Source: Pocillopora verrucosa (taxonomy: Eukaryota; Cnidaria; Anthozoa; Scleractinia; Pocilloporidae). Taken from it: 64,000 nucleotides of DNA. This document shows, one piece after another, positions 37,001 through 64,000 of this stretch. The stretch lies in contig NC_089315.1 of assembly GCF_036669915.1 (NCBI RefSeq), forward strand, positions 23,823,436 to 23,887,435, written 5' to 3'. The number at the start of each line of letters is the position of its first letter. Position 1 is the first letter of the stretch. The notes below the pieces were generated by a model. The model worked only from the letters and a program-made list of their open reading frames with translations, was not told the DNA's origin and searched no databases. A program made the translations under genes and the position numbers.

Positions 37001-38341
37001 TCTGTTATAAAAGAATTTGTTCATGCTTTTAGCTGTGCGTATATTGAGTTATGGATGTACTTGGGAAGTTTAGAGAGCACTCAAAAAGCTAGAGTTGCTC
37101 TCAGCTGTGCCTCGAGCTACTCTTATGCATTTTTGGTGCTCTCCAAACTCCCCTCATGCATCTGTATGCATGCTAAGCATGAAAAAATTCTTAAATATCT
37201 GCTATAAAATATCCATCTACATTCTGCAAAATGCACAAAAAAAGTGTTAGGTTCTTACATGATTAACCACTGTTTCAAAGAAAATTACTCCTTGAATTTC
37301 TTCACTCTCAAATATTTCAAGAAACAGCCTTGAAACCTGAAATAAAACACCAAAGAATCAGCTCAAGGAAATTAACCCTATCATTTGGCTTAATTGTGTG
37401 TCTTAATTGTGTGTTGTTCTTGTCCTGACACAACTAATTATTTTTCATTTTTTTTTAATTCAAAACTTGAATGCCTTCTCTGTCCAACTGTCACATCAGT
37501 GCCTGTAATTACCTATTAGTAAATACTTGCAAACTAAAATCCCTGAGGATGTAAGGATATCAATTTGAACTCTAAATCAAACCTCGTCAAATGCTCAGTA
37601 CCTTTCTGCAGAGCATGGCCATTTGCAAAGCATTTGTGATTTTTTCTTTCTTACCATCCATACCATCACACCGTAAAATCGCCTTTGATGGATGGTCCTC
37701 AGGACAAATTTTAGCCTCAAGAAAAACATCGGTTCGGAAAGTTCATGTGATATGTCAGGGCATAATACCAAGACCACCACCAGCAATTTTCGAGTCGATG
37801 TCCAAAACAAGCTGGCTACAGGTTTGAAAGGTGTACCTCCATACTACAGTCGACTACAAACTGTTACAAAGCCTTGCTTTCAAATGCAATCTATTGCTTT
37901 CGCCATTATTTTTTTTTTGTCAAAGAACTGTTCGCACAATAAAGTATGGTGTTATACGGAAATATTGCTGAAAGGTTTACTCTGCACAAGTCTAACAACG
38001 CTTAGGCCAAGATCGGTCAAAGTGCGGTAAACAAACTCAACTTACCTGGCAATCAGGAACAACGTAATGAGTCAGTGATTTACAAAGCAAAGTTCCGTTA
38101 CCTAAATAACGAATTAAATTAAAGTGTGTGATACTGAACTATATTATGCTGTAACTAAGATAACAACTTCAAAAGATTGACTGTAGCTTACTCTGCTTGC
38201 AAACGCTTACTTACCTTGTTCGCAAACTGCACAAACTTCACTGTGGCAAGGAACATCTTTCCGCAAATAGTGTTCCCGCACAACATCAAGAAGTCGGCCT
38301 GTTTTCGTTTTTAACCTTAGCAGCTTATTAGTTTTGATCAT
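19552..38341 (-). CDS. DIS3L: DIS3-like exonuclease 1 (DIS3L), complete 31-exon gene
   Basis: This gene encodes the RNase II/RNB-family 3'-5' exoribonuclease that is known to associate with the cytoplasmic RNA exosome. I joined 31 exons on the minus strand. Every junction reads GT-AG and all phases agree, giving about 1,045 residues plus a TAA stop at 19552-19554; human DIS3L has 1,054. The start ATG is at 38339-38341. Domains in order are an N-terminal Cys motif (REHYLR...CHSEVC), a PIN-like domain at about 50-205, cold-shock domains at about 215-440, the RNB domain at about 470-810 with [13 protein letters not shown], and an S1-like region at about 850-960. The protein matches DIS3L better than DIS3 ([43 protein letters not shown]). 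The PIN domain lacks the E and D nuclease residues of DIS3, as in vertebrate DIS3L. Its 5' end is head to head with gene X. Confidence 0.95.
22449..28794 (-). other. DIS3L: DIS3L exons 15-26 (catalytic RNB domain)
   Basis: Exons: 15 28726-28794, 16 28087-28185, 17 27044-27136, 18 26476-26578, 19 26093-26190, 20 25669-25745, 21 25090-25169, 22 24439-24534, 23 24243-24328, 24 23905-23971, 25 23282-23431, 26 22449-22553. Exon 15 carries [13 protein letters not shown] with the metal-binding aspartates at about residues 477, 483, 485 and 486, so the exonuclease site looks complete. Exon 16 gives [13 protein letters not shown], exon 17 [20 protein letters not shown], exon 22 [19 protein letters not shown], exon 25 [20 protein letters not shown] and exon 26 [12 protein letters not shown] + strand open frame over exon 26 (22338-22619) is only its shadow. 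Confidence 0.93.
24677..24890. repeat. Two tandem copies of a dispersed coral-type repeat in DIS3L intron 22
   Basis: Both copies contain 'gtgactagcatctcatttct', 'tcaaacattaaggtca' and 'aaatgatcaccaact', about 116 bp apart. A third diverged copy is in intron 5 at 35143-35245. The family is short, non-coding and, as I recall, common in corals. Confidence 0.6.
29675..29830. repeat. Dispersed repeat in DIS3L intron 13
   Basis: Contains 'gactaacgtttcgacaa' followed by 'atcatcctcacaagt', which resembles a repeat I recall as very common in coral genomes. Not present at the matching place in remnant C. Confidence 0.45.
30047..30267. repeat. Two ~96-bp units, ~125 bp apart, in DIS3L intron 13
   Basis: Units share 'ctctttcg.ccgcgtgt.cgct', 'gttaa.gtcgaacg' and 'atgcagct.att.aaacaaa'. 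Remnant C has a single related unit at about 52234-52330. Confidence 0.6.
32096..32227. repeat. Perfect 66-bp tandem duplication in DIS3L intron 10
   Basis: 32096-32161 and 32162-32227 are identical by my reading ('actgcttggaagctaatggc' onwards). Remnant C has only a partial single copy near 53785. Confidence 0.85.
34012..34213. mobile_element. ~200-bp MITE-like repeat in DIS3L intron 7
   Basis: Ends 'ccctttaacccccaa' and 'ttgggacttgaagggtta' are inverted relatives. The same element sits at the same place in remnants C (55560-55765) and D (63035-63240), so it predates the duplications. Confidence 0.6.
34366..38341 (-). other. DIS3L: DIS3L exons 1-7 (N-terminal Cys motif and PIN-like domain)
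   Basis: Exons: 1 38215-38341, 2 38046-38101, 3 37259-37336, 4 36104-36255, 5 35644-35725, 6 34879-35023, 7 34366-34436. Exon 1 begins [16 protein letters not shown] and carries REHYLR and CHSEVC. Exon 2 gives [10 protein letters not shown], which keeps the first PIN aspartate. Exon 3 gives [20 protein letters not shown]. Exons 4 and 5 give [18 protein letters not shown] and VILTEDQQ. Exon 7 gives the [12 protein letters not shown] segment before the first cold-shock domain. The position of the DIS3 glutamate (QEV) reads NHV here, and the GENANDR aspartate is lost. From family knowledge this PIN domain should not cut RNA; that is an inference. The same seven exons are sampled in the downstream remnants B, C and D. 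Confidence 0.92.
36527..37199. mobile_element. ~670-bp insertion in DIS3L intron 3, absent from the remnants
   Basis: In B, C and D the sequence passes directly from 'gattctgaaa..aaacatctatc' to 'gctataaaatatcc'. Only the full gene has this insert. It contains two overlapping + frames (36616-36945 and 36920-37207) of no recognised family, and near its right end two inverted 'gagagcac' / 'gtgctctc' pieces. Probably a non-autonomous element. Confidence 0.5.
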
Positions 38342-40294
38342 ATTTCGGCGTTCATGGATATGAAACAACGGCCATTTTTAAAGTGAAACTACAACTTAAA
38401 CCCGGCGCCATTTTGTTGATTACATATCCCAACAGCACTTGCTAGTTAAACTTTTGATTGGTAACCAGTTACCTCGATACCTCGGTCGCAAACAAATACT
38501 AAATGCGCATTGGTCAGTTGAATTGTGCTTACATCTTCCATTTCCTTGCTTTAATACTAGTTATAGTTCTCACTAGAGCTGCCCCCGCCCTACAGTACTA
38601 TTTTCTATTGTTTTTTTTTTTGAGTTGGGCTTGTTGTTTACAGTTGTGTAATTTTTCTGTTATGTTGTTACGGAATTGCGGCTCAGTACTTTGGTTTTAA
38701 TAATTTTGGATCTCAAAATACTACAAGTGTACAAAATGTAGTTTTGGGAAGTGCTTGGGATGTTTTTTTTGCTGTGTGGTTCAACTTAGGATTTGTTTGT
38801 TCTTCACGATCAAGAAGAAGCAGAATGTAGGGACTTGGGTGAGTTTTGACATTGGAATGTTATAGGTGGCAGACTTGCCTCTGACAAATCCAGAAATTGC
38901 CGAGTCTTTCGGCTTTGTGCAATAAGCTTGATTTACGGCTGACAAATCGGAGTTAACTGAGTCTTTCGGTCAAAATGCTAAACTTACACCGTCTTCTGAG
39001 CATCGGTGAAATTATTTCTGTATTAACTTCTGTATAACACAAATGAAACTCTATAACTCTGAGAATAATCCAACATCAAAGCAAACGAGTTAGAAGCTCA
39101 ACTTTTTCATGTATTTGATATCTGGTTATACTTTAATTATGCTGCAAGTTCTTTGCTTTAAGTTCTCACGTTAGCTGACTGAGCTGTGGACCCTCCGCCG
39201 CCTTCGATCGAGACTTCACACAACTGTTTCTCTTTTGACGGATTTTGATCACCTTTTAAACTCAAAACTACCTTTAATTGTTAGAAAGATGCTATACACA
39301 CTTACCGTTGGACTTGGAAACGCTTCTCGACGCTTTTCAGGGACGCTTAACTCGAAATCTCGACAAGGACAAAGCTTGTATCAAAGACGCCGATCCCAAT
39401 AGTACTCGCGCGCGTTTTTGCTGGCCGCCCATGACCATTTGCGGGAAAAACGTTGATACCTTGCGGCCGTGCAAGCGATCAAATCGAGATTTTTTCTGGT
39501 TACGATCTACCGAAAATACCTACATTTTCTCTTCTCCAGTCTTCCTCTATATTACGCGGGGATTCCTAAGGTGCCTCCTCGGGTTTTTGGCCCCAGAGGG
39601 CCAAAAACCCTGCGGGGGCAATAAGTTCGCATTTTGTTGGAACTGACATGTTCCGATGAAAATACGTTTGAAAAGTCGTTGCTTGTAATAAGGTAGTTGA
39701 GATCCATCAAAAGGCTCTTAACAAGTGGATAAATCGTCTAAAGCATGGGCAGCCCTCCACTACCGTAGACCTCAATTGATACTTTGTCTGTGAAGCAGCG
39801 TTTGCTCTATTGTGCTGTGCACTTGTGCTTCAATATTAAATTTTACCTAATTCATATTTTGGTGTGCCTGGTAGTTGAAACGTACTTTTAATTTCGTCAT
39901 TGTGTTTTTTTTTCAGTTACCACTGAAAGGCCCGAATCCATTTTTTTCTTTGACCACTTCTGGTAATTTTCGAGCTTGTCGCCAAAGTAAGCGGACCAGA
40001 GGTTAGAAAGATATAAATCTTTTTTACTTATTAAATATCAATCAAGGGTTGTCATTTTGACACAAAGCTAACGAAAATTATTGCCGTTATTGTAAATGCG
40101 CTCGCGCTGGTCGCTCGCGCTTAAAATGACAGAGCCTCAAATTGAATCTGATTGGTTTATCAAATCGCACGCGCTTGAATCTCTTTTGTTATGTCACAAT
40201 CTGGGAAATCCATTCGCATGAAAATACTGTCCAGAGAGACTTATATTTCAAAGCGCGTAAACTTTGTTCAGATATAACCCAGCAAAAGCTAAAC
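38342..40294. promoter_or_regulatory. Divergent intergenic region between DIS3L and gene X1
   Basis: This 1.95-kb stretch separates the DIS3L start (minus strand) from the gene X1 start (plus strand). About 1.07 kb of it (38556-39620) is absent from the B/X2 and C/X3 copies, where the two starts are only 875-880 bp apart, so the shared core is short enough to be a bidirectional promoter. CCAAT boxes on the DIS3L coding strand lie at 38457-38461 and 38509-38513. Another ATTGG, 140 bp upstream of the gene X ATG (40151-40155), recurs at 47847-47851 and 58277-58281. I see no clear TATA box. Bidirectional activity is an inference from spacing and conservation. Confidence 0.5.
38556..39620. mobile_element. 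Copy-specific ~1.07-kb insertion with short terminal inverted repeats
   Basis: Aligning the DIS3L/gene X intergenic regions shows that copies B (near 47330) and C (near 57770) pass straight from 'ctttaata' to 'agttcgcatttt', while this copy holds about 1.07 kb between them. Near the left end is TGCCCCCGC and at the right end GCGGGGGCA, which are inverted. A flanking AATA is a possible target duplication. Inside, an open frame at 39278-39646 has no recognised domain. A non-autonomous DNA transposon is the simplest reading; loss from the other copies is the alternative. Confidence 0.45.
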
Positions 40295-41592
40295 ATGGGT
40301 TCTGCTTTAAGTTCATACAAATCCAAGAGAAGAGATAAGAAAGAATATAAGAGGTGAGTAAACATTTTTCTTCCGCTTGAAGGAAAATATTCAGATGCTC
40401 TTGCGACTCGATTTTGTTTTCCATGGTGACATTGATCACATCGTCTATCTTGTTCAAATCTGTTTTTTCCGTCGAGTAGGAAACTCAGAGAGCAACTGAA
40501 AGAAGCACAAGAACACATAGCTCGTCTCCAGGAACAACTTCAGTGTGAAAATGAGTAAGTTCATTCGAGTAATGTTTGCTGAGGTGGCTGATTCTTTCTC
40601 GATTAAACTTCTTTTCTTTGACTTTCTCTTTTCTATACCTAATCGTAGAAACCCAGTAAAAAGTCCATATGCACTAGTTATGTAAGTCTCTGTAGCTAAG
40701 AGGGCTTCATCTGGGTTATTCCGAGAAAAAGTGAGGGACTGAGTATTTGGGTGGTTGCCCAGTATTTCTAGCTCTTGTTAGACGCAAAAAAGGTGGATAA
40801 TTGTTCTATCTAAGACCCTTTCTTAGCTTTTTCTTTTCTTCAAAGTTTTGTATTGTAAACCTAGAATTAGCACTTGCTGGCGCAATTCACCGTTATTGTT
40901 CATTACTTGTGTGGGCTAATTATTCTTCTTCGTTCTCTTTTGACATTTTATGTAGATTACTTGAGGCCTTTCAAAGGTCACGCATCGCCCCTAACGCAGG
41001 GCCTGGAACACAGAAATATCGAGCAGCCACTGAAATGATGAAAGAAATTGACGCTTTGGAGCGAAAGCTTTTCTTTGAGCAAGTTGCTCTGAATGTTACA
41101 GAAAACAGATGTGATTTTCTGGATAACAACTACCGGTAATTAAATTGCCGTTTAATACCTGTACACTATGGCGTTCTTAAAAAGTTAAAAACAGAAGTTT
41201 GAACTCTTCACACCAAAAGATTGTCAGTTCTCAAATAATCAGAAGACTCAATAATAGTCCTCGGTCAGTGCATAGAATGTTTAAAGATCGGCATGTAAGG
41301 AGGGGAGGGGGGAAAACGAAAGCTAGTGCTCTCAAATGGGGCAATTCAGGACAAAAATCATTTCAAGCTGTAAATATGTTTTATCTCTTTTTACAGTCTT
41401 CTTCACGACAATGAGACGAACCTTTACTGGCAGAAGTCATCTTGTCAAACAAACCTGGAGGCCTTGAAAAAGAAACAAGAGGCCATTCAGTTCAGTCGAT
41501 TCAAAGACGAAAATCCGCTGGAACAGTGGGTCGTCTGCTCACTTCCAAATCTTTACTTTGGAAGAGTTGAAACCCTATCATCATGGCATTAG
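40295..41592 (+). CDS. Gene X copy 1: putative N-myristoylated coiled-coil protein, 169 aa
   Basis: Four exons (40295-40353, 40480-40554, 40956-41135, 41397-41592) join with matching phases into 169 residues ending in TAG. The protein starts MGSALSSYKSKRRDKKEYKR. Gly2 and Ser6 fit the N-myristoylation consensus, and the basic run after it would favour membrane binding. Residues 20-45 (KLREQLKEAQEHIARLQEQL) form a clear coiled coil, followed by further charged helices (ALERKLFFEQVALNVTENRC, LEALKKKQEAIQFSRFKDEN) and an ordered-looking tail (WVVCSLPNLYFGRVETLSSW). I do not recognise the family and assign no function. The start was chosen because the same ATG, the reading frame and the splice sites are kept in copy 3; upstream codons in the longer frame are not needed. 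AATAAA lies at 41745-41750. Confidence 0.75.
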
Positions 41593-43770
41593 TGTTCTCT
41601 TAGTTTAAAAAATGAAAATGAAAACAGTGTACTGCCTTTCTTTTCCTAGATATTTTGAATGAAAACATTTGTACTATGCCGTAACTGAATCTTCTAGACA
41701 TATGGTGCGATGGCACTTTTTATTGAAATATCCAATAGAAATTTAATAAACTTATGGTAATTTTTTGTTCGAGGTGATGTAGTAGTTATCTGGCCCTATT
41801 GAAGGTAAATTAAAAGGCCTAGCCTCTGATGAATTTGACCACTCAAAACCAAGGCCATCAATTGCAACACAATGGTAGTTTATAATAGTCGCATGATTCT
41901 TACCAGTCAGTCAAGGTTCGTGGTTTTACTTTCAATAGAAACATCAGCGATTTACACCATTACGTCATGACCTCTGCGGAAGATTTCAGAGTTAAAGCAT
42001 TTTTCTTTAAGTGTTTTTATTCCGTCTCTATAGTGAGATCTTAACTTAAAATAGGAGAAGGAGGTAAATAATTTTAGACTGGAAGTGGAAAATGATACAC
42101 TTGACAATTGACACGCCACATGTGTGAGTTGTTAAGCCCGCCATTGTAACCCGTGTAAGGTCCAACTTCTGCGCCTATCAATTTTCTGTGAACGTTATGC
42201 CTCTTGCAAAAATCATCAAACAGGTATCTTGAGAAAGAGTCAATGAATAAGAGTAAGAAGCTTTGATATACTCGATACAACGTTGTCACGTTTCCCTGGA
42301 AGCGAGATTTTCTTTGTCAGTTCCATCACGAACACCATAACTATACTGTAAAAGAAAACTTTAAATAACCAGAAGCATGTCCCTCATGAAGTTTCTTATA
42401 TTCAGTCACTTTGAACGAAGCACAAACGCAGGTTTCATCTCATGTGCAGTTGTTCGCTTGAGTCTTAAAACAATGTATAACTGAAAGGAAAAGCTCACTG
42501 CTTTCATTTTTCATTTTTAGAGGGCACGGTAACAAATCCTGCAATCTGATTGGTTCTTTACCCGGTCAGTATTTTCCTATCTCTGCCCACGGGCCACAGC
42601 TACGCTTTCGTGAATCGCCGAGTACATCCCAAATTTCGTTGCCATTTCTCATAAACATATCTCTTTTTTCCGGCTGGGCAGTATTTTTAACAAGACACGT
42701 CGGTTACTACCTCAATAAAATAACTTATGAATCCTCTCTTTTCTCTCCCTCAAATCACTTTGGTTGACAGAAAAATATGGGTTTCAGAATGAATTTGTTT
42801 AGGCAGTAGTTTCATTACGTTGGTTGACAAGCGGCCTAAAAACCGTCTGCAATTAATTTTAATCGTTCACAAAAAGTACTTAGAAAGTTAAAACGTGAAG
42901 TATTTGGTTACAGTTAAAATGAGCGATGGAACTTTTATTCATTTAATATCTGAATTTTCTCAAACAATTTGTTCGTAGTGAAAGAGCGAGCGAAGTTTTA
43001 AATTCAGTTCTACAACAAATATACGCCCTCGGTAAGTCTTTCCGAGTCTGTTCAATTTGGACATTTGTACCGTAAATTGCACAACAGAAACTGAAGGGAT
43101 TTATTGAGAAAAGGCCCCAATAAATCCCCTTGTGTCTCGTTGGAGTGTACCATTCGAATTTAGTTTTTGTGGAGGAAACACCAGATTTACACACGCCATT
43201 GCAGCAAACAAACGAGCAAACTCTTAAAACTTCCAAATAAAAAAATTTGACTTACTCACAATTACTTTCCTCGCCGTTAACTTAATGAACAGAGGTAAAT
43301 CTTCGTACATGAATGAATCGTCGATGAGAGTGAATAATACTTTCTGTTAGATCACTGAATGTTTTTGAAGAAAACATTGTCGTGACAGTCCTTGCCAAAC
43401 TAGTTCCGTTGTGTTTCAAATGTTCTTGCGCTTTTTTTTCTTACGCGCTCTCTAATTGACAGGTGTCAGATTGTGACAGATACTTGTAAAAATAATGTTT
43501 CAAAGTTTATTTGGAAGCCTTTTAACTTTCGGTGAGGTATCTCTCTTTAATTTGCATCACCTCTATTTTAATTACCATTTAATCGCTCAAAAATTGTTCA
43601 GTTTATGGAAGATCTTGCCGTATTTACAGCCCTAGACCATTCGGGTTCTTTCGGAAAGAATCTCATCAAGTCTTAAAAAAATAAATATGTTATTTACCGG
43701 CTAAGTGTCGGTCCGTATGGCAAAAAACTGTGACCTCGGTCTTGAAAATGCTGCGGCTTGGCATTGTATT
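41593..43770. repeat. Downstream spacer of gene X1, duplicated at 59712-61790
   Basis: About 2.1 kb that is collinear with the DNA after gene X copy 3. It contains no supported gene. A 97-codon minus frame (42943-43236) is kept in both copies (60944-61237) but has no domain or splice context. Ends with 'ggctaagtgtcggtccgtat', then joins DIS3L intron DNA. Confidence 0.7.
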
Positions 43771-44989
43771 GATATTTTTAGGAAAAATAAAATCTGTCTT
43801 GGTCACTCAAGGGAGTTCAATACAAGAAAACTAAATACTGTAAAAATAGACTGAAGCATTTTAAATTGACATTTTTTTGTTCGTACAAACCCACTGGGTT
43901 GCATCAACAGGTGTATTTAAATACATAAAGTATGTAATAATTGTAAATTGTAGTAAATTCAAACTTTTTAAGGTTGCAATGAAAAAATACAACTGTACTG
44001 TGAGAGTAATCAATCAAAAGCCCGAAATAATGTTCAGGGAAGTTCTACAGAATGGGGTCTTCAAGTTGATATCACCCCTATTCTTGAGCCTCACGGATGA
44101 GTCTGACTTTCTTTGCAAAGTTTTTTTTTCATTTGTTTTACAATTGTTTACTGAGTCTAGTTTATGAGGTTGGATGCAGGGCAGCAAATATATATATTTT
44201 TTCCTTTTCTTTATAAAAACATACATGTCTATTATCATGTCCCATTTATTTCTAACACAGAATGTTATCAGACATTTCTGATATCTTCTTTCTTTTCTGC
44301 AACTGAGTCTCCATTTCAAGGTTTTCAAGGCATTATGTGAAGCCCAAGTCAAAATTTTGTTGCACTTGTCTAATATTGACCAATGATTGACAGTTACTGC
44401 AGGTTTGCAAACACTTGCTTACCTATTCACCATGCCAGTGATGAGTACATCAGAGTCTAGTGAACCCTTACTGTCTCATATACCCTTGCTAAGGATGTAG
44501 AAAATCACTTTTAAACAATAATGTAATGCAATTGATTTATTTGCAAAATAGGCTTGGTGTTTTTGTTTTATTTTTCATGCTGGTTAGGCTGATTCGAAGC
44601 ATTGAGGATCTCACCTTCTTAAATGTGTTCTTGGCATTTTTAGCTCAGTGCTATAAAGTTGGCAAACTGAAAGTGACATTTACTTGTGATAAGACAATAA
44701 AAATATGTCAAAAAGAAATCATATCATCAAATGTCGTACTTGCTTGTTCTTATGTGTGATGTTTAACTATACCTATAAGCACTGATTCTGAAACTTAAAC
44801 ATCTATCAGCTATAAAATATCCATCTACATTCTGCAAAATACACAAAAAGCTGTTCTGTGCTTACATAATTAACCACTGTTTCAAAGAAAATTACTCCTT
44901 CAAGTTCTGCACTCTCAAATATTTCAAGAAACAGCCTTGAAACCTGAAATAAAACACCAAAGAATCAGTTCAAGGCAATTAACCTTGTT

Positions 44990-46790
44990 TGTATAGCTGA
45001 CTATATGAGAACCCTTCAGAGTTCAAAATAATTTTTCAGCTTTTAGCGTGAATTTGTAGGCTTTTGTCAAGGCTAATTTTTTTCTCGGCTGTCAATAATA
45101 AATGAGCAGTCAGCACACATCTTTAACACTCAACATGGTTTATTAACAGTACTGAAAGGAATCAAACACTGAATGCATACATAACAGCATCAGAATCTTT
45201 ATTTTGGTCAACATGTTTTCTTGCAGAAATTCCCTTTCTACCAAAACATAATGAACAGCTCAATTAGTTTTCAGCGTTTGTTCAAGCATGATCACCACCT
45301 CTAGAGGTGAATTGTTGAATGTATGTCTTGCCTTAGACTGAACATAAATTACATTAGTGGTTTCTTCCAAAATGTATCTGCCACTAGTTCTTGGAACGTA
45401 GGAGGTCCTTTCACATTCTTGTGTGTTATTTCTGCATGATAATCTTCACAAGAGTGCCACCTTTTTGTCTTGCATTACCAAAAAGTGGTGGCCTTGAAGA
45501 ACTTGCTTGAGAGCCAGTAAGAGAGACACCATAAGTTAACAAATGACTTAATTGTTCTGTATATGTTGTCCAGCTATCTGTGGGATGTTTGATGGCAAAT
45601 TCGTCAAATCTTCCCCCATGACAAGAAGAGAAGATCCATCCTCTAAATGCAAGACATTAAATCGTCCTGAGTGAGTCAGCCAGTACATCATGTCTCCAAA
45701 CTCATCCCTTAAGTACAAAAAACTCGTTTCCACCTGAGAAATACAATTTTCCTCATTTGCTGTTTTCAGTGTTGAAGATTTCACCCCCAACACAACTGCC
45801 TGCAGGGTAACCACAGTTAAAAACAATCTAAATTTTGTTTTAGATTACTTAATCTTGCATTGTTGCAGTCACGTCATCAGACAATTTTGCAAGACTCCAA
45901 ATGTAGATACAAAGTGTACTTGCCTGAAAAGCTTGAGAAAGCCTGGAAACTGTCATATCCCCCGCTGCTATTCGTAATTTAAGCAGTCTTTTCCAACCCT
46001 AGTCAAATCAAAGGTTTTATTGCTTGCCATGATGTCGGCGAACGGACAGTCCGAAAGGGCACGAAACTTTCACTTCTCCAGGCAGGCCATTAGAAATGGG
46101 GTGGTATCAGAAACTCCCTCTCCGTCACCTTCCTTCCAACCACGTTTTACAGTATGGTGAAAAAGTCAATATGGCTACATTACCCGCACCAATATGCTCC
46201 AATACGAGGTCTAAGATCTTTTTAACTTCTTAGCTAAATGTCGCTGTAATGGACAGAACTGAGGAAGACACTCTAAAACGTCATGAAAGACCATGAAGAG
46301 ACAGCTAAACTTTCACTTCATTCCCAACCTTTTAAACAAGGAAGCGGACCTGACCGTGAGGAGGGGGTGCTGGGGGTAAAAAATTACCGTGTGAATGGAC
46401 CCCTCCCCCTCCCTCTTGGGTAGTTCTGTCTACTATTTTGAGTGTTTTGGCTGAAAAACAAAACTTGAAAATTGCAATCAATTTTCAATTATAACACTGC
46501 CACTGAAAACAGAAAAACTAAGCCATGCCACAGACTGCAACATTATCGGAAGAGCAAAATTGCCCCTCTGTTTCATTTTTCTCTTTATTGTTGACAGGAT
46601 TAAATTAAAAATATAGGTTGCGTTTCAATATTCTATCAGAAGGAAAAATAGTAAAAAATTTTCGATTTGGCACTTTCCTATTTTTTATGATAAAAAATAA
46701 CGAAAATCAAACAAAAAACGTCAATTTTCAATTTTTAATTTTAAAAGAAAATTGAACGGTCGAATGACACACGGATCCCTTGGGCCAAGA
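44990..46790. other. Foreign DNA inside DIS3L remnant B
   Basis: This block lies between exons 3 and 2 of remnant B and is not found in the full gene. Its left part (44990-46040) occurs only here. Its right part (46040-46790) is shared with remnant C at about 56530-57215. On the minus strand it shows exon-like open pieces (next entry), followed by AT-rich DNA with inverted 'caattttcaatttttaattt' motifs. Confidence 0.6.
45425..46000 (-). pseudogene. Exon-like coding relic of unknown family
   Basis: On the minus strand, a piece bounded by AG and a GC-type donor (about 45925-45999) reads WKRLLKLRIAAGDMTVSRLS. After a short intron-like gap, 45548-45801 reads LRDEFGDMMYWLTHSGRFNV and on to a stop. 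A second frame, starting near GRFDEFAIKHPTDSW, stays open for about 60 codons, which suggests one frameshift near 45600. Protein-like composition but no family recognised. May be a captured gene fragment or part of a transposon. Confidence 0.35.
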
Positions 46791-49167: not shown

Positions 49168-49208
49168 AGTTAAAGCATTATTCTTTAAGTGTTTTAATCA
49201 CCTTTTAA

Positions 49209-52666: not shown

Positions 52667-52920
52667 GGACTTAAATGGAGTAATTCAAAACTATAAGAAC
52701 ATTCTCGAACGATAGATAGTGTACTTGGACAGTGTAATAGGACAGTTGACAAGTCATGCCTTTGTAAGTGGACAGTACGCGTCAAGCGCGCGCGTTGTTG
52801 TCGTGCATTTCGCTGAGTTAACTGTTGTTTGTTCATGAAAAAGTATGACGGATGTCTAGTCCGATTTGCTCATCACTTGTATGATTACAGACCGAATTAG
52901 ACTCCACTCGGTCCTATTAC
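52667..52920. mobile_element. ~255-bp insertion in remnant C
   Basis: Absent from the matching DIS3L intron at about 30610-30655. Contains 'gactccactcggtcctatta' and 'gatgagcaaatcgg' (inverse), familiar to me from a short coral repeat. No coding sequence. Confidence 0.5.
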
Positions 52921-55900
52921 CATAACGAATACCCAGTTGCTTTGAACCTACACCGTTTGAGAGGCTGCATACGCGGTCAGATAGCCTATCGTCAGATTGG
53001 TCAGAGTAGATACGGTTACGCGTGGATATACAGTCGATATAAATTAATTATGCATTGAGTTCGTAAAATTTCTTGTTCTCTAAACGTTACTCGCGCCTAT
53101 CCACTGTGAGCTCTTCTTACAATATTACTAAGGGAGGGGTGGTCCTTGCCACTGCAAGCCTAACACATCCACGTAACCATGTGTCCACTTCAATCTGTGT
53201 TCAAATGTGAATGTAATCTTGAAAAAAAATTTGTTAAAAATCCCTAAAATCAACCAATTTCGACTTACGACCCCCATTCCACCGTTCAATGTTGAATAGT
53301 TATTAGACTGTAAACAACGCGGTCATTTGTTTTTCGGAGAGTTCTTTGATAAAGATTCGTAAAAACCAAAACCAAGATAATCTCTTCAATCCAAACAAAG
53401 GTCAACATCTTAATCAGCCAACGACAGCCAAAAGTAAATGAGAATTTTCAACGCGAAATGGCACACTCTGAGATGAGATTCGGCGAAACGGGTGAAATTC
53501 ACGGTGGACCGCTGAACATGCTGGTCCATGAAGAAGCATTTACCTCATTTTCAGCAAAACTTGCAACATAATCTCTCCAGTTCCTTTGCACCACTCCCAC
53601 CACACGGCCAGTTGGCATGACGTCACTTTGGTCCCCTCTAGACTCATCTTTACCTAAAGAGAGGCCATCACTTGGATCGTTTCGGTGTACAGTTTGTATT
53701 CATGTGTTCAGAAAATTTGATTGAATGCATTGAATGGACTGTTCAGAGGTTTCTTTCAGTCATGTTTTCCTAAATGTGAAATAATTAGCCGAATTTACCA
53801 GAATGAAAGTTGTCTCGATCTACAAAGTACCGCTATAAGTAGACTGCTGTCTTAAGGACATGGCAGGATAAAAAGTGACATCTTAAGGCTTAAAAAAACA
53901 TTTATACATGTCAAGTATCAACTTAAGATTATTCACACCTTCATCACTGCTTCTAATAGCCATTGATCTGCCCTTCCACTGAAATTAGGAAAATAATTCC
54001 ACCACTACAATATCACCATGCACTGCCCAATTTCTGAAACACAAAATGTTACTGAGCCTTGAACTTCAAACTGTATGGCTATACAAGACTGTAGACTTGC
54101 TTAACCCTTTCACTCCCAAGATCTTTTATGTAATTCTCCTTACTGTATGCCATAAAATTCTTATGATGTCTGTGCAAAGAATTTGGAATTAGATAAACTA
54201 ATACTCCCATTATTAACATTTTTCTTTCTTCACATCACTCAGCGGCGGAGATTTTTAGGAGAAATTCTGTCTTGGTCACTCATGGAAGTTACATCGAAAT
54301 AAACTAAACACTGTAAAAATAGACTGAGGCATTTTGAGTTGACATTTTTTTGTTCGTACAAACCCACTGGGTTGCATCAACAGGTGTATTAATAAAAATA
54401 CATAAAGTATGTAATCATTGTAAATTGTAGTAAATTCAAAATTTATACGGTTGCAATGAAAAAATACAACTGTACTGTGAGAGTAATCAATCAAAAGTCC
54501 GAAATAATGTTCAGGGAAGTTCCACAGAATGGAGTCTTCAAGTTGATATCACCCCTATTCGTGAGCCTCATGGATGAGTCAGACTTTTCTTTGAAGAGTT
54601 TTTTTTTCATTTGTTTTACACCTGTTTACTGAGTCTAGTTTATGAGGTTGGATGCAGGGCAGCAAAGATATTTTTTTTCATTTTCTTTTTCAAAACATAC
54701 ATGTCTATTATCAAGTCCCAGTTATTTCTAACAACACAGAATGTTATCAGACATTTCTGATATCTTCTTTCTTTTCTGCAACTGAGTCTCCATTTCAAAG
54801 TTTTCAAGGCATTATGTGAAGCCTCAGTCAAAATTTTGTTGCATTTTTGTCAGTATTTGTCTAATATTGACCAATGATGGACATTTACTGCAGATTTGCA
54901 AACACTTGCTTACCTCTTCACCACGCCAGTGATGAGTACATAAGAGTCTAGTGAGTCCTTACTGTCTGACATACCTTTGCTAAGAATGAAGAAAATCACT
55001 GTTAAACAATAATGTAATGCAATTAATTTATTTGCAAAATAGGCTTGGTGTTTTTGTTTTATTTTTCATGCTGGTTAGGTTGATTCCAAGCCTTGAGGGT
55101 CTCAACTTCTTACCAAGATTAGCTTCTAGCTGAATAAATATAGCATATGCAAAAATGTATGTGTAACAGTTTGAAATGAGATAATTCAAGGTAAGCATTA
55201 TGTTACAAGGACCTCAGTCCTTCCTCTCTTGGTATTCAAGTTCGTTTAGTGCAAACCCTAACTTCATGCACTGGAATAAGCTGCATTTAAATGTAATGAT
55301 ATCATAGATTAACAACAGAGGAAACATAGTATACCCTCACTTTTGAACAAATGCCTTATCTTGTGCACAATGTTTGTTGACATTGAGACATCCTTGCAAG
55401 AAACAACCCCTGATAAGAATCCAAAAGACATTTCTACAGTAACAATGGGACTAAGCTTGAGGTTTCTATGGCATGATATGCATAGTTGATCAACTATCAT
55501 GTAAAATACAAAAGAGACATTTCTGTTCATTAACAACAGCACACCAATAGGCCACTCACTTTATCCCTTTAAATCCCAATATCAACATGTATATTCTCAT
55601 CACTGTTCTACATATGTTTCTTATTTAACTGATTGAGAGAATTTGTTCAAACATCAAGACATTTCATCTTTGGTGATCATTTTATTCATTCTCATAAACT
55701 GTACATTTGATCAGGCAGTAATATTGTTAGGAGAAATTAGATGCCACTGTTTGGACTTGAAGGGTTATTCACTTAGGTGTGCAGACATGTTAATCTATCA
55801 TGGAATAGTTAGCTGCTAACAAAGCTATTTTATAATAAGCATTTGTGAAAGAATGCTGGTAAAAATTAATCATCATTATTAATAGTAACTCTTCCATTAG

Positions 55901-56529
55901 AAAATCTCTCTCTCTTACAGCTTTAATTCCAGCTTCAAGAACCTCAGCTGGTAAGTATTCTTGATATTCCTTTGTGGATGCTTCACTCACTACAATGGGT
56001 ATAAAGTTAAAATGAAACTTTAGTGCCAATTATATTTAAAAAATTTCTTATAATTGATCATACTTCTCATCTTTAGTGAAAAAAAAAATAAATAAATGGT
56101 CACATATTTTAAATCAGTCTATGTCCTCAACAGAGCTTCACCTCCACTGCCACTCTTCCAAAGACTCCCTGGGTTCCCTGGCAACATAAGCCCATCACAA
56201 AACTCGTTACTGACAAGTGCATTGATTGACTTATATAGTAAAGGAATATTCTCTCATAACTAAAAGTAAATGTGTTATTGGCCTTTTTAGCTCAGTGCTA
56301 TAAAGTTGGCAAACTGAAAGTGAAATTTACTTGTGATAAGACAATAAAAATATGTCAAAAAGAAATCATATCATCAAATGTTGTACTTGCTTGTTCTTAT
56401 GTGTGATGTTTTATTATACCTTTAAGCATTGATTCTGAAAACTAAACATCTATCTGCTATAAAATATCCATCGACATTCTGCAAAATACACATAATTAAC
56501 CACTGTTTCAAAGAAAATTACTCCTTGAG

Positions 56530-57215
56530 CATGAAACTTTTACTTCCTTCGCAGACTCCAGGCAGGCCCTTGGGGAGGGGGTGGTATCAGAAACTCCCTC
56601 TCCGTCACCAAGCCTTCCAACCACGTTCTACAGTATGGTGAAAAAGTCGATATGGCTCCATTACCCGCACCAACATGCTCCAACACGAAGTCTAAGATCT
56701 TTTTAACTTCTTAGCTAACGTCCAAAGACTGGCTGCTCACTGTAATGGACAGAACTGAGGGAGACACTCCAAAACGTCATGAAAGACCATGAAGAGACAC
56801 CTAAACTCTCACTTCATTCCCAACCCTTTAAGCAAGGAAGCGGACCTGACCATGGGGAGAGGATGCTGGCGGAAAAATTTACCGTGTGTATGAACCCCTC
56901 CACTAACACGGTAAATTCAATTTTTACACTGCCACTGAAAAAAGAAAAACCAAGCGATGCCACAGACTGCAACATTGTCGCAAAAGCAAAATTGCCGCTC
57001 TGTTTCATTTTTCTTTTTATTGTTGACAAGATTAAATTAAAAATAAAAGTTGCGTTTCAATATTCTATCAAAAGGAAAAAAAAATTTTGATTTGGCACTT
57101 TCGTATTTTTTAGGATAGAAAATAACGAAAATCAAAAATTCACATCAATTTTCAATTTTTAATTTTAAAAGAAAATTGAACGGACGAATGACACACGGAC
57201 CCCTTGGGCCAAGAT
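56530..57215. repeat. Insert in remnant C shared with remnant B
   Basis: Matches 46040-46790. On the minus strand both copies keep an open piece (ILDFVLEHVGAGN in C, ILDLVLEHIGAGN in B) ending at TWLEG. Here the insert directly truncates exon 3. Unknown origin. Confidence 0.5.
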
Positions 57216-58423
57216 CGGTCAAAGTGCGGTAAACAAACTCAACTTACCTGGCAATCAGGAACAAAGTAATGAGTCAGTGATTTACAAAGCAAAGTTCCGT
57301 TGCCTAAATAACAAAATAAATTAAAGTGTGTGATACTGAACTATAGTATGCTGTAACTAAGATAAAAACTTCAAAAGATTGGCTGTAGCTTCCATTGCTT
57401 GCAAACGCTTACTTACCTTGTTCGCAAACTGCACAAACTTCACTGTGACAAGGAACATCTTTCCGTAGATAGTGTTCCCGCACAACATCAAGAGGTCGGC
57501 CTGTTTTCGTTTTCAGCCTTAGAAGCTTATTAGTTTTGATCATATTTTGGCGTTCATGGATATGAAACAACGGCCATTTTTCAAGTCATACTACAAATTG
57601 AACCCGGGGCCATTTTGTTAATTACATATCCCAACAACACTTGCTAGTTAAACATTTGATTAGTATCCAGTTACCTCGATACCTCGGTCGAAAACAAATA
57701 CTAAATGCGCATTGGTCAGTTGAATTGTGGTTCCATCTTGTATTTCCTCGTTTTAATATAAGTTCGCATTTTGTTGGAATCGACAGGTTCCGATGAAAAT
57801 ACGTTTGCAAAGTCGTTGCTTGTAATAAGGTAGTTGAGATCCATTGAAAGGCTCTTATCAAGTGGATAAATCGTCTGAGGCATGGGCAACCCTCCATTAT
57901 CGTAGACCTCATTTGATACTTAGTCTGTGAAGTTCTACTGTGCTGTGCACTTGTGCTTCAATATTAAATGTTACCTAATTCATATTTTGATATACCTGGT
58001 AGTTGAAACGTACTTTTAAACCTATAATTTTTGTTATCGCGTCTTTTTTTTCAGTTACCACTGAAAGGCCTTAATCTTTTTTTTACTTAGAGCACTTCTG
58101 GTAATTTTCGAGCATGTGGCTAATGTAAGCGGACCAGAGGTTTGAAAGATATAACTCTTTTTTACTTATTAAACATCAATCAAGGGTCGTCATTTTGACA
58201 CAAAGCAAACGAAAAAAATATTGCCGTTATTATAAATTCGCTCGCGCTTAAATGACAGTGCCAGAAATTGAACCTGATTGGTTTATCAAATCTCGCGCGC
58301 GCTTGACTCTCTTTTGTTATGTCACAATCTGGAACACTCCATTCGCATGAAAATACTGTCCAGAGAGACTTATATTTCAAAGCGCGTAAACTTTGTTCAG
58401 ATATAACCCAGCAAAAGCTAAAC

Positions 58424-59711
58424 ATGGGTTCTGCTTTAAGTTCATACAAATCCAAGGGAAGAGATAAGAAAGAATATAAGAGGTGAGTAAACATTTCTCT
58501 TCCGCTTGGAGGAAAATATTCATATGCTCTTGCGACTCGATTTTGTTTTCCAGGTGACATTGATCACATCGTCTATCTTGTTCAAATTTGTATACTTTTT
58601 TCCCGTCGAGTAGGAAACTAAGAGAGCAACTGAAAGAAGCACAAGAACACATAGCTCGTCTCCAGGAACAACTTCAGTGTGCAAATGAGTAAGTTCATTA
58701 GTGTAATGTTTGCTGTGGTGGCTGATTCTTTCTCGATTAAACTTTTTTTCCTTGACTTTCTCCTTTTTATACTTAATCGTAAAATCCGAGTAAAAAGTCC
58801 ATATGCACTAGTTATGTAAATGTCTTTAGCTAGGAGGGCTTCATCTGGGTTATTCCGACAAATAGAGAGGGACTCAGTATTCGGGTGGTTACCCAGTATC
58901 TCTAGCTCTTGTTAGACGTAAAGAAGGTGAATAATTTGCTCTATCTAAGACCTTTTCTTAGCTTTTTCTTTTCTTCAAAGTTTTATATTGTAAACCTAAA
59001 ATTAGTACTTGTTAGTGCAATTGACCGTTATTGTTCATTACTTGTTCGTTCTCTTTTGACATTTTATGTAGATTACTTGAGGCCTTTCAAAGGTCACGCA
59101 TCGCCCCTAACATAGGGCTTGCAACACAGAAATATCGAGCAGCTACTGAAATGATGAAAGAAATTGAAGCTTTGGAGCGAAAGCTTTTCTTTGAGCAAGT
59201 TGCTCTGAATGTTACAGAAAATAGATGTGATTTTCTGGATGACAACTACCGGTAATTGAATTGCTGTTTAATAACCGTACACTATGGCGTTATTAAAAAG
59301 TTAAATACAGAAGTTTCAGTTCTTCACACACACACAAAAAATGTGAGTTCTCAAATAATCAGAAGACTCTATAATAGTACTCTGTCGGTGTATAGAGAGT
59401 TTGGAGATCGACAAGTATGGAGGGGAGGGGGGAGAACGAAACCTAGTGCTCTCAAATGAGGCAAATAAAAAAAAAATCATTTCAAACTGTAAATATGTTT
59501 TATCTCTTTTTACAGTCTTCTTCACGAAAACGAGACAAGCCTTTACTGGCAGAAGTCATCTTGTCAAACAAACCTGGAGGCCTTGAAAAAGAAACAAGAG
59601 GCCATTCAGTTCAGTCGATTCAAAGACGAAAATCCGCTGGAACAGTGGGTCGTCTGCTCGCTTCCAAATCTTTACTTCGGAAGAGTTGAAACCCTATCAT
59701 CATGGCATTAG
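58424..59711 (+). CDS. Gene X copy 3: putative N-myristoylated coiled-coil protein, 169 aa
   Basis: The exons are 58424-58482, 58614-58688, 59072-59251 and 59516-59711, with the same lengths and phases as copy 1 (59, 75, 180 and 196 bp) and all splice sites intact. The encoded protein again has 169 residues with MGSALSS at the start and the same coiled coil. Seen differences from copy 1 include R12G in the basic stretch, E-to-A before the exon 2/3 junction, A-G-P-G-T to I-G-L-A-T, and D-to-E or N-to-D changes. Equal length with only scattered substitutions suggests recent duplication and possible retained function. Its 5' neighbour is exon 1 of DIS3L remnant C. AATAAA lies at 59867-59872. Confidence 0.72.
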
Positions 59712-61790
59712 TGTTCTCTTAGTTAAAAAAAAAATGAAAATGAAAACAGTGTAGTGCCCTTCTTTTCGTAGATATTCTGATTGAAAACGTTTCTACTATG
59801 CCGTAGCTGAATCTTCTAGACATATGATGCGATGGCACTTTTTATTGAATTATCTAATAGAAATTTAATAAACTTATGGTGATTTTTTTGTTCGAGGTGA
59901 TGTAGTAGTTATCTGGCCCTATTGAAAGTGAATTAAAAGGCCTAGCCTCAGATGAATTTGACCACTCAAACCCAAGGCCATCAATTGCAACACAATGGTA
60001 ATTTATTATAATCGCATGATTCTTCCCAGTCAGTCAAGGTTCGTGGTTTTACTTTCAGTAGAAACATAGTAGCGATTTCCACCATTTGGTCATGAACTCT
60101 GCGGAAGATTTTAGAGTTAAAGCATTTTTCTTTAAGTGTTTTAATTCCGTCTAGGACGGAAATGGGAGAAGGAGGTAAATAATTTCAGACCGGAAGTGGA
60201 AAATGATACACTTGACACGCCGCGTATGTGAGTTGTTAAAGCCGCCATTGTTACCAGTGTAAGGTTCACCTTCCGCGCCTATCAATTTCCTGTGAACTTT
60301 ATGCCTTTTACAAAAATCATCAAACAGGTATCTTGAGAAAGAGTCAATGACTAAGAGTAAGAAGCTTTGATATACTCGATACAGCATTTTCACAAACAGA
60401 CTGATGTGTTTTCCTTTGCGTTCCCCTGGAAGCGAGATTTTCGTTGTCAGTTCGCATCACGAACACCATAACTATACTGTAAAAGAAAACTTGAAATAAC
60501 CAGAAGCACGTCCCTCATGAAGTTTCTTCTATTCAGTCACTTTGAACGTAGCACAAACGCAGGTTTCATCTCATGTGCAGTTGTTCGCTTGAGTCTTTAA
60601 ACAATGTATAACTGAAAGGAAAAGCTCACTGCTTTCATTTTTCATTTTTAGAGGGCACGGTGCAATCTGATTGGTTCTTTACCCGGTCAGTATTTTCCTA
60701 TCTCTGCCCACGGGCCACGGTTACGCTTTTCGAGATTCGCCGAGTACATCCCAAATTTCGTTGCCATTTCTCATAAACATTCTCGTTTTTTCGGCTGGGC
60801 AGTATTTTTAACAAAACACGTCGGTTACTACCTCAATAAAATAACTTATGAATCCTCTCTTTTCTCTCTCTCAAATCACTTTGGTTGACAGAAAAATATT
60901 GGTTTCAGAATGAATTTGTTTAGGCGATGGAACTTTTATTCATTTAATATCTGAATTTTCTCAAACAATTTGTTCGTAGTGAAAGAGCGAGCGAAGTTTT
61001 AAATTCAGTTCTACAACAAATATACGCCCTCGGTGAGTCTTTCCGAGTCCGTTCAATTTGGACATTTGTACCATAAATTACACAACAGAAACTGAAGGGA
61101 TTTATTGAGAAAAGGCCCCAATAAATCCCCTTGTGTCTCGTTGGAGTGGACCATTCGAATTTAGTTTTTGTGGAGGAAACACCAGATTTACACACGCCAT
61201 TGCAGCAAACAAACGAGCAAACTCTCACAACTTCCAAATAAAAAATTTGATTTACTCACAATTACTTTCCTCGCCGTTTACTTAATGAACAGAGGTAAAT
61301 CTTCGTACATGAATGAATCGTCGATGAGAGTGAATAATACCTTCCGTTAGATCATTGAATGTTTTTGAAGAATACATTGTAATGACAGTCCTTGCCAAAC
61401 TAGTTCCGTTGTTTTTCAAATGTTCTTGCGATTTTTTTTCTTACGCGCTCTCTAATTGACAGGTGTCAGATTGTGACAGATACTTGTAAAAATAATGTTT
61501 CAAAGTTTGTTTGGAAGCCTTTTAGATCACCTTTATCCTTACGCAAATGAAAATGTTTCGGTGAGGCATCTCTCTTTAATTTGCATCACCTATATTTTAA
61601 TTACCATTTGCTCGCTCAAAAATTGTTCAGTTTATGGAAGATCTTGCCGTATTTACAGCCCTAGACCATTCGGGTTTTTTCGGAAAGAATCTCGTCAAGT
61701 CTTAAAAAAATAAATATGTTATTTACCGGCTAAGTGTCGGTCCGTATGGTAAAAAACTGTGACCTCGGTCTTGAAAATGCTGCGGCTTAG
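59712..61790. repeat. Downstream spacer of gene X3, copy of 41593-43770
   Basis: Same order and junction as the copy 1 spacer. Differences include a small extra piece at about 61520-61560 and a missing stretch near 60925. No gene. Confidence 0.7.
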
Positions 61791-64000
61791 TATTGTATTG
61801 ATATTTTTAGGAGAAATAAAATGTCTTGGTCACTCACCACACCCCACTGGGTTGCATCAACAGGTGTATTAAGATACACAAAGTATGTAATCATTCTAAA
61901 TTGTAGGAAACTCAAATTTTTAAGGTTGCAATGAAAAAATACAACTGTACTGTGAGAGTGATCAACCAAAAGCCCAAAATAATGTTCAGGGAAGTTCCAT
62001 AGAATAGAGTCTTCAAATTGATATCATCCCTATTCTTGAGCCTCACGGATGAGTCAGACTTTTCTTTGCAAAGTTTTTTTTTCATTTGTTTTACACTTGT
62101 TTACTGAGTCTAGTTTATGAGGTTGGATGCAGGGCAACAAATATATTTTTTTCATTTTCTTTTCAAAAACATACATGTCTATTATCAAGTCCCATTTATT
62201 TCTAACAATACAGAATGTTATCAGACATTTCTAATATCTTCTTTCTTTTCTGCAACTGAGTCTCCATTTCAAGGTTTTCAAGGCATTGTGTGAAGCCTCG
62301 GTCAAAATTTTGTGGCACTTTTGTCAATATCAGTCTAATATTGACCAATGATTGACAGTTACTGCAGGTTTGCAAACACTTGCTCACCTATTCACTATGC
62401 CAGTGATGAGTACATCAGAGTCTAGCGAGTCCTATCTATCTGACATACCCTTGCTAAGAATAAAGAAAATCACTGTTAAACAATTATGTAATGAAATCAA
62501 TTTATTTGCAAAATAAGCTGGGTGTTTTTGTTTTATTTTTCACGTTGGTTGGGTTGATAAGCATTGAGAGTCTCAACTTCTTGCCAAGATCAGCTTATAG
62601 CTGAATAAATATAGCATAATGTCCAAATGTATGTGTAACAGTTTGAAATGAGATAATTCAAGGTAAGCATTATGTTACAAGGACCTCAGTCCTTCCTCTC
62701 TTGGTATTCAAGTTCGTTTAGTGCAAACCCTAACTTCATGCACTGGAATAAGCTGCATTTAAATGTAATGATATCATAGAGTTACAACAGAGGAAACATA
62801 GTATACCCTCACTTTTGAACAAATGCCTTATCTTGTGCACAATGTTTGTTGACATTGAGAAATCCTTGCAAGAAACAACCCCTGGTAAGAATCCAAAAGA
62901 CATTTCTACAGTAACAATGGTACTAAGCTTGAGGTTTCTATGGCATGATATGCATAGTTGATCAACTATCATGTAAAATACAAAAGAGACATTTCTGTTC
63001 GTTAACAACTGCACACCAATAGGCAACTCACTTTATCCCTTTAAATCCCAATATCAACATGTATATTCTCATCACTGTTCTCCATATGTTTCTTATTTAA
63101 CTGATTGAGAGAATTAGTCCGAACATCAAGACATTTCATCTTTGGTGATCATTTCATTCATTCTTATAAACTGTACATTTGATCAGGTGGTAATATTGTT
63201 AAGAGAAATTAGATGCCACTGTTGGGACTTAAAGGGTTACTCACCGAGGTGTGCAGACATGTTAATCTATCATAGAATAGTTAGCCAGTATTAAAGCTGA
63301 TTATATTCAAAAAAATTTCTAATAATTAACCATACTTCTCATCTTCAGTGAAAAAAAAAATTTTAAAAAAATGGTCACATATTTTAAGTCAGTCTATGTC
63401 CTCAACATAGCTTCACCTCCACTGCCACTCTTCTGAAGACTCCTTGGATTCCCTGGAAACATAAGCCCCATCACAGAACTCATTACTGAATATGATGCTC
63501 TGTTGCCTGTTATTGTTCACAATATCTTTTAATTGAGATTGAAGTTTTCTCCCTCCTTGATGCTGGACCTATGAAAACATTTACAGAAGTGCTTCATGTA
63601 CAAGTGCATTGATTGACTTATCTGGTAAAGGAATATCCACTCATAACTAAAAATAAATGTGTTCTTGGCCTTTTTAGCTCGGTGCTATAAAGTTAGCAAA
63701 CTAAAAATGACATATTTCACTCATGATAAGACAATAAAATATGTTAAAAAGAAGGCATATCAACAAATGTTGTACTTGCTTGTTCTTATGTGAGATGTTT
63801 AATTATACCTTTAAGCATTGATTCTGAAAATTAAACATCTATCTGCTATAAAATATCCATAGATCTACATTCTGAAAAATACACAAAAAGGTGTTCTGTG
63901 CTTACATAATTAAACACTGTTTCAAAGAAAATTACTCCTTGTAGTTCTGCACTCTCAAGTATTTCAAGAAACAGCCTTGAAACCTGAAATAAAACACCAA
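61790..64000 (-). pseudogene. DIS3L remnant D (exons 9, 8, 4, 3; continues past the window)
   Basis: Starts at the same kind of junction as remnant B. Exon 9 (62388-62453) has an in-frame TAG (GAT AGA TAG in place of GAC AGT AAG). Exon 8 (62807-62881) carries the same extra G at its acceptor as remnant C. Exons 5-7 are missing, since DNA near intron 7 joins DNA near intron 4 at about 63290-63310. Exon 4 (63417-63568) and exon 3 (63906-63983) are open. Exons 1 and 2 would lie beyond 64000. Confidence 0.85.

Follow-up and report, generated by a model that had tools for sequence, protein, structure and literature searches.

Tandem duplication of a DIS3L 5' part, a small gene and a rhodopsin-type GPCR gene in Pocillopora verrucosa

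Gene content of the five blocks

The analyzed window is a 64-kb stretch of the Pocillopora verrucosa genome (GCF_036669915.1, NC_089315.1). All coordinates follow the numbering of this window, and the chromosome beyond it was included in the analysis. Five blocks in the same orientation are arranged head to tail within one chromosome in the order A, B, C, E, F, in 264 kb of sequence without N. Blocks A, B and C are located inside the window; E begins within it and, like F, lies to the right beyond its end. The blocks contain the 5' part of DIS3L, the gene of an RNA-degrading enzyme, a small gene designated gene X and a gene for a rhodopsin-type GPCR; A and C lack the GPCR gene. The original prediction had overlooked the GPCR gene and described three blocks of DIS3L 5' exons with gene X. 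The start pairs given for these (38341/40295, 47118/47994 and 57543/58424) were exact, and the total extends to five with a DIS3L/gene X start pair at 80879/81777 in block F, beyond the window. A tRNA was not found in the 64-kb window. The genes and remnants within the window are as follows (DIS3L exon numbers are our own):

19810..38341, minus strand: DIS3L of block A, with exons followed from exon 1 at 38341 as far as the C-terminal region at about 19810
40295..41592, plus strand: gene X copy A, intact, with exons 40295-40353, 40480-40554, 40956-41135 and 41397-41592
43755..47118, minus strand: DIS3L remnant B, which begins with a start codon at 47118; exons 1-3 and 9 were located, and exon 9 contains a stop
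47994..49149, plus strand: gene X copy B, broken, with the acceptor of exon 2 changed from AG to AA and exon 4 cut by a deletion
49209..51001, minus strand: intact gene for the rhodopsin-type GPCR in block B, encoding 348 aa in two exons
52116..57543, minus strand: DIS3L remnant C, with exons 8 and 10 each interrupted by a stop; start codon at 57543
58424..59711, plus strand: gene X copy C, intact
61782..64000, minus strand, continuing past the window to the start codon at 67115: DIS3L remnant E, stops in exons 8 and 9

The DIS3L gene of block A was traced by tblastn using a human DIS3L query, with weak matches for the last exons. A stretch of 274 joined residues matched the Pfam domain RNB (PF00773, E=3.6e-75) and the best PDB match was DIS3-like exonuclease 1 (E=2e-123); Pfam gave no match to the first 213 residues. 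Within the array the catalytic RNB part is present in copy A only: matches past residue 352 of human DIS3L were restricted to block A, and the same was true for close RNB matches across the genome.

All further DIS3L copies are dead, as had been proposed. There are stops in exon 9 of B and E and in exon 10 of C, frameshifts in C and F, and exons that were not found. In remnant C, exons 4 and 12 have each lost a single base, matches to exons 3 and 4 were only partial, and exons 5 and 6 were not found. Each dead copy carries stops or indels of its own. Copies C, E and F share an in-frame TGA in exon 8 that A lacks, so that at least one lesion predates the separation of these copies or was spread by conversion. 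An interpretation of this codon as part of a splice donor was ruled out by the phase of exons 8 and 9, which places the TGA in frame. Exon 1 is intact in B and C, in agreement with the original prediction, and it is open in all five blocks. The predicted fourth DIS3L piece at 61790 turned out to be the body of block E: similarity to DIS3L resumes at about 61782, after a repeat, and this block has its exon 1 at 67115 and its gene X at 70987, both beyond the window.

Gene X is complete, with four exons, and encodes 169 aa in block A. It is open in four of the five copies (A, C, E and F), which includes the two of three window copies expected to be open; copy E has lost its stop and gained five extra residues. 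A paralogue with four exons is located on another chromosome. A Pfam search with gene X revealed nothing above the curated cut-off and the best PDB match had E=0.43. Among viral contigs, nine stretches matched a pattern and none was a relative. Gene X represents an uncharacterized small gene family with several copies in the genome. The GPCR genes of blocks E and F, which lie beyond the window, are intact as well, and all three copies are open over 348 codons.

Junctions, repeats and copy history

Self-alignment of the blocks gave 3,244 aligned columns with 89% identity for A versus C and 1,936 columns with 93% identity for B versus C, both far above chance. Two types of junction alternate along the array, j1 (A/B), j2 (B/C), j1 (C/E) and j2 (E/F):

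42520..43754, no strand: interspersed repeat of about 1.24 kb, abutting j1 in A and C, where the GPCR gene is missing
51391..52231, no strand: junction j2, where a 287-bp chimera that joins GPCR flank to DIS3L intron sequence occurs three times

The two j1 junctions are 93% alike, with a small further deletion at C/E, and the two j2 junctions are 93-95% alike. The j1 repeat in C (about 60651-61781) is 93% identical to the copy in A over the aligned part, and the same j2 join is present between E and F (75639-76187).

Tandem repeats are hard to assemble, and an array of this kind could come from uncollapsed haplotypes or mis-joined copies. Such an artefact is extremely improbable here: the DIS3L parts of different blocks diverge by 0.075-0.135 in noncoding sequence, gene content, lesions and insertions vary between copies, and the 264 kb are free of N.

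Unrooted trees of the copies separated A and F from B, C and E for DIS3L exons 1-2 (ultrafast bootstrap 98) and gene X (90). The same split was recovered in the intergenic DNA with values of 84 on the DIS3L side and 63 on the gene X side. At exon 4 of gene X and its 3' flank, C groups with A (91; B left out). Copy C, allied with B and E on its left side and with A at this position, looks recombinant.

Constraint on gene X, the DIS3L fragments and the intergenic DNA

The ratio dN/dS (omega) was 0.41 for gene X and 0.50 for the GPCR gene. These values do not separate live from dead genes: over all sampled exons, the dead DIS3L of B, C, E and F had an omega of 0.46 (p 0.008). Omega alone was rejected as proof that gene X is alive on the basis of this control, and in general a dN/dS below 1 among tandem copies is no proof of life. 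Since omega is low in dead DIS3L too, the case for gene X rests on conservation of the reading frame and on the comparison of exons with introns. Copies A, C, E and F contain no gapped column in 510 columns of coding sequence versus 88 in 788 intron columns, and divergence is 0.041-0.042 in exons and 0.080-0.137 in introns. The variable sites are distributed over the three codon positions as 8/14/25. Judged from these patterns of sequence change, gene X is under purifying selection. Gene X and the GPCR gene are presumably expressed.

The low omega of the DIS3L remnants could also mean that the truncated copies produce a short N-terminal protein or a functional non-coding RNA, for example one that tunes DIS3L or the exosome. 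Exon 1, open in five of five copies, gave an omega of 0.37-0.40 (p 0.03-0.05; 0.37 with p 0.034). However, its variable sites are evenly distributed over the codon positions (6/6/6), and without exon 1 the omega of the dead copies was 0.53 with p 0.096. Exonic divergence (K) reached 0.73-0.82 of the noncoding value in the four pairs of dead copies that offer 130 exonic bases or more; the two shorter pairs (89 and 125 exonic bases), however, gave 0.14 and 0.48. In addition, the copies carry their private stops and indels, and gene conversion from A could depress omega. The chance that exon 1 remains open after 18 random changes is 0.38; with this chance and the flat codon positions, selection was rejected as a necessary cause of the open exon. 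A function of the fragments is very unlikely. The open state of exon 1 lies within chance; its omega of 0.37-0.40 is not fully explained and leaves a doubt.

Head-to-head gene pairs may share a bidirectional promoter. The start codons of DIS3L and gene X diverge from the following segments:

38342..40294, no strand: intergenic DNA between the start codons in A, 1,953 bp
47119..47993, no strand: intergenic DNA in B, 875 bp
57544..58423, no strand: intergenic DNA in C, 880 bp
38556..39621, no strand: interspersed repeat that interrupts this DNA in block A alone, located 214 bp upstream of the start codon of DIS3L

Together with block F, where 897 bp separate the start codons, B and C resemble such pairs, with a distance of 875-897 bp that is below the approximately 1 kb used to define bidirectional pairs. 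The intergenic DNA is longer in A because of the 1.07-kb repeat insertion, which appears as a gap in the A/B, A/C and A/F alignments. A search with the first 345 bases of this repeat found numerous copies elsewhere, with 97-100% identity for the best of them. Block E is also lengthened, by an insertion of about 3 kb within the intergenic DNA.

If the promoter of gene X needed the DIS3L side, a shared divergent promoter would be retained and the DIS3L arms would persist with it. The three longest invariant runs of the intergenic DNA (38, 33 and 30 columns, two of them within 190 bp of the DIS3L start) exceed expectation: their sum was reached by 46 of 3000 shuffles with five copies and, when copies A, C, E and F were used, by 22 of 3000. 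An early version of this test, in which none of 2000 shuffles reached the top-three sum, was weakened to 46/3000 once each indel was counted once. However, intron 3 of gene X gave an equally strong result (23 and 32 of 3000). The mean intergenic divergence of 0.069 overlaps that of introns 1-2 of gene X (0.080) and equals that of DIS3L exon 1 (0.068), and gene X is open in A and E despite the insertions between the start codons. A promoter-driven module of this kind is unlikely. It is similarly improbable that the blocks form a selected module around the divergent promoter, with extra copies of gene X and the GPCR gene for dosage and DIS3L arms kept for promoter activity or a short regulatory product. 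The locus differs from a head-to-head pair with a bidirectional promoter in that no clear constraint on the promoter is seen. The proposal that selection acts on gene X or the promoter with DIS3L carried along holds for gene X and for the passenger fragments; selection on the promoter is not apparent, as divergence there overlaps that of introns 1-2 of gene X and the run test is no stronger than in a gene X intron.

Origin of the array and comparison with known systems

Taken together, the array is very probably a five-block tandem segmental duplication in which gene X and the GPCR gene are live and the DIS3L fragments are passengers. From this one genome we infer an ancestral order of DIS3L (minus), gene X (plus) and GPCR (minus). 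The first tandem duplication would have joined the 5' flank of the GPCR gene to a DIS3L intron, forming j2. DIS3L to the right of A would thereby have been cut after about exon 12, with the catalytic part missing from the outset. A deletion associated with a repeat may then have removed the GPCR gene and more of DIS3L from one block, forming j1, and unequal exchange between copies could have raised the number of blocks to five. In this order of events gene X and the GPCR gene would have been copied whole, most copies still being open, and the DIS3L fragments would decay as passengers.

The locus is a compact example of how a tandem duplication with a breakpoint inside one gene can leave dead 5' ends of that gene in several places, next to neighbours whose copies are live. 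Automatic annotation could misread these 5' ends as an expansion of DIS3L.

Among the matches listed in the coral literature no title dealt with DIS3L; a microRNA review (PMC7283388) mentions Dis3L2 and microRNA genes. According to sections of a coral catalogue that includes effusa (PMC10236652), 29.9% and 32.6% of genes lie in tandem clusters, and in the families amplified in corals the commonest domain is the rhodopsin-type GPCR, with 34 of 192 orthogroups. Our array shares with these sections the tandem clustering and the amplification of a rhodopsin-type GPCR. As annotated genes are counted there, remnants of dead DIS3L that have no gene model would probably be missed.

The original prediction regarded the unit as one of an undescribed kind. 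This is contradicted by passages of a study on Acropora (PMC12314368), which show that corals are already known to duplicate several genes in tandem together with neutral hitchhikers: tandem duplication recurs there by non-allelic homologous recombination and neighbouring genes hitchhike. In both cases unrelated neighbouring genes and repeats were amplified together and some copies are pseudogenes; transposons are proposed to help in Acropora. In contrast to the cases in these passages, the DIS3L passenger is cut at its 3' side, its extra copies never possessed the catalytic part and there are just five blocks. As tandem duplications go, the array is of an ordinary type, with one passenger gene broken.

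Extent and architecture of the array

For the analysis the window (C4:23823436-23887435 in an assembly of 353 Mb and 52 contigs) was taken together with 80 kb to its left and 120 kb to its right as one stretch of 264 kb, which contains no N bases. Coordinates above 64000 carry the window numbering on rightward. Self-alignment revealed long direct repeats, as predicted for a recurring block of DIS3L 5' part, intergenic DNA and the divergent gene X, and the positions of the three predicted start-codon pairs proved exact. Besides blocks A, B and C, two further blocks were found to the right of the window:

Block E: start codons at 67115 (DIS3L) and 70987 (gene X)
Block F: start codons at 80879 (DIS3L) and 81777 (gene X)

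A DIS3L piece is indeed present at about 61790 and is the body of block E. In a whole-genome search with 38341-38900 (best 40 of 63 candidates), the first 215 bases, which are DIS3L-side intergenic DNA, matched five places, one per block and all in this stretch of C4. The remaining matches among these 40 correspond to a 1.07-kb repeat in block A, with starts no more than 8 bases outside it. This repeat (38556-39621) lies within the DIS3L/gene X intergenic DNA of block A, 214 bp upstream of the start codon of the sole complete DIS3L. The first 345 bases of the repeat have nearly identical copies elsewhere, which suggests a recent insertion.

In blocks B, E and F the DIS3L 5' part is followed by intergenic DNA, then gene X and then a receptor gene (GPCR) that is absent from blocks A and C. 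Along the array the breakpoint junctions alternate in the order j1, j2, j1, j2. At j1 (A, C) the 3' flank of gene X is followed by an interspersed repeat abutting DIS3L intron sequence, and the C/E junction carries a small additional deletion. At j2 (B/C and E/F) the GPCR 5' flank is fused to the DIS3L intron at about position 29930 of block A; a 287-bp j2 chimera is repeated threefold at 51391-52231.

42520-43754, block A: interspersed repeat of about 1.24 kb

At least 43 further near-full-length places of this repeat were found in the genome (40 of 1098 candidates scored). It is abundant, sometimes in tandem, and often has an inverted copy of about 70 bp of its 3' end shortly beyond.

Coding capacity of the three genes

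Features of the receptor gene and of the DIS3L copies
GPCR of the unit, minus strand: two exons, 348 aa, rhodopsin-type (7tm_1)
DIS3L-A, minus strand: exon 1 at 38341 to C-terminal region near 19810, similarity to human DIS3L
DIS3L-B: stop in exon 9
DIS3L-C: exons 8 and 10 interrupted by stops; single bases deleted in exon 4 and, twice, in exon 12
DIS3L-E: stops in exons 8 and 9
DIS3L-F: exons 4, 7 and 8 interrupted by stops; exons 3, 4 and 5 with deletions

The joined exons of the RNB part of DIS3L-A (274 residues) matched PF00773 with 3.6e-75 and, as best solved structure, DIS3-like exonuclease 1 with 2e-123; similarity to human DIS3L was weak in the last exons (E 0.001-0.04). Using a 128-residue query from A, the catalytic part was found in no other copy, and the other genomic matches were located on C8, C12, C13 and C14 (38-67% identity). 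Six RNB-domain matches lie within 200 kb at C8:8450763-8642501. All of them fall in open frames, 887-1420 codons long, and they appear to form a tandem array of a different RNB protein. The predicted death of remnants B, C and D (the body of block E) was borne out by stops in all three and deletions in C. An exon-8 TGA is common to DIS3L-C, -E and -F; no exon 8 could be located in block B.

Gene X consists of four exons (169 aa in copy A). As predicted, two of the three window copies are open: A and C are intact, and B is broken by an AA acceptor at exon 2 and a deletion cutting exon 4. Copy F is also intact; copy E has lost its stop codon, and its frame closes five residues further on. A paralogue with the same four exons is located at C6:15426900-15428700 (42% identity in exon 3, 51% in exon 4), and weaker matches lie on C9 and C7. 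The N-terminus of the C6 paralogue, MGSALS, resembles a myristoylation site. A Pfam search with gene X gave no family above its cut-off, and the PDB two matches, the better with E 0.43.

The GPCR is open in B, E and F. Its first splice model (354 aa) matched 7tm_1 with 1.2e-46, and the best of its other genomic matches showed 32-33% identity (116 of 2812 candidates scored). The window contains a separate second tandem duplication (9454-14065 and 15613-20540), which carries plus-strand frames for rhodopsin-type GPCRs (11734-12564, 17655-18506). Its right copy stops at 20540, within the 3' part of DIS3L-A, and a 70-bp piece of that part recurs at 13996-14065.

History of the copies and selection

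In unrooted trees with ultrafast bootstrap, A and F were split from B, C and E in DIS3L exons 1-2 (98), the DIS3L side (84) and X side (63) of the intergenic DNA, and gene X as far as intron 3 (90). For gene X exon 4 and the 3' flank C grouped with A (91; B left out), and in the DIS3L body tree (A, C, E, F) with E (95). Informative two-against-three sites paired A with F in 19 of 66 cases, the remaining 47 being scattered over nine pairs. Trees and site patterns thus point to related middle blocks B, C and E and to an apparently recombinant copy C; the end blocks are likely the oldest lineages. We infer that a founding duplication would have been followed by a repeat-associated deletion and later by unequal exchange between copies, events which together would explain the array.

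Selection had been proposed for gene X or a shared promoter. Among gene X copies A, C, E and F, gapped columns numbered 0 of 510 in coding versus 88 of 788 in intronic sequence. Mean pairwise divergence was 0.042 in exons 1-3 (five copies) and 0.041 in exon 4 (four copies), and 0.080 in introns 1-2 and 0.137 in intron 3; variable sites at codon positions 1/2/3 numbered 8/14/25. Pairwise dN/dS was 0.12-0.51 across ten pairs, with a bootstrap upper limit above 1 in two of them (A-C, C-E). Codon-model omega was 0.41 for gene X and 0.50 for the GPCR (both p 0.004). A simple reading of these values is undermined by the dead copies of DIS3L (B, C, E and F): their omega was 0.46 over all sampled exons (p 0.008), 0.53 without exon 1 (p 0.096) and 0.37 for exon 1 alone (p 0.034).

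Exonic and noncoding K in pairs of dead DIS3L copies
B-E: 0.061/0.083
C-E: 0.059/0.075
C-F: 0.074/0.102
E-F: 0.094/0.115
B-C: 0.011/0.077 (short comparison, 89 exonic bases)
B-F: 0.041/0.085 (short comparison, 125 bases)

The exonic to noncoding ratio of A was 0.46-0.57 against C, E and F, and 0.32 against B. By this comparison the dead copies are near neutral rates, perhaps not quite at them; the remaining difference may reflect conversion by copy A or an earlier time in which they were functional.

Constraint on the shared promoter is possible. Invariant intergenic runs of 38, 33 and 30 columns exceed expectation (top-three sum reached in 46 of 3000 shuffles), but gene X intron 3 is equally strong in this test (23 of 3000), and at 0.069 the intergenic divergence resembles the 0.068 of DIS3L exon 1 and overlaps that of gene X introns 1-2 (0.080).

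Comparison with known coral gene arrays

Among the papers listed for DIS3L with coral or duplication, none dealt with this locus, so the locus may be undescribed; the kind of unit is already known. In Acropora, according to PMC12314368, unrelated neighbouring gene families expand simultaneously via recurrent tandem duplication by non-allelic recombination. Hitchhiking genes and transposons are involved, and pseudogenes are among the fates. A study of two corals found that tandem clusters hold 29.9% and 32.6% of their genes, and names the rhodopsin-type GPCR as the commonest domain among amplified families (PMC10236652).
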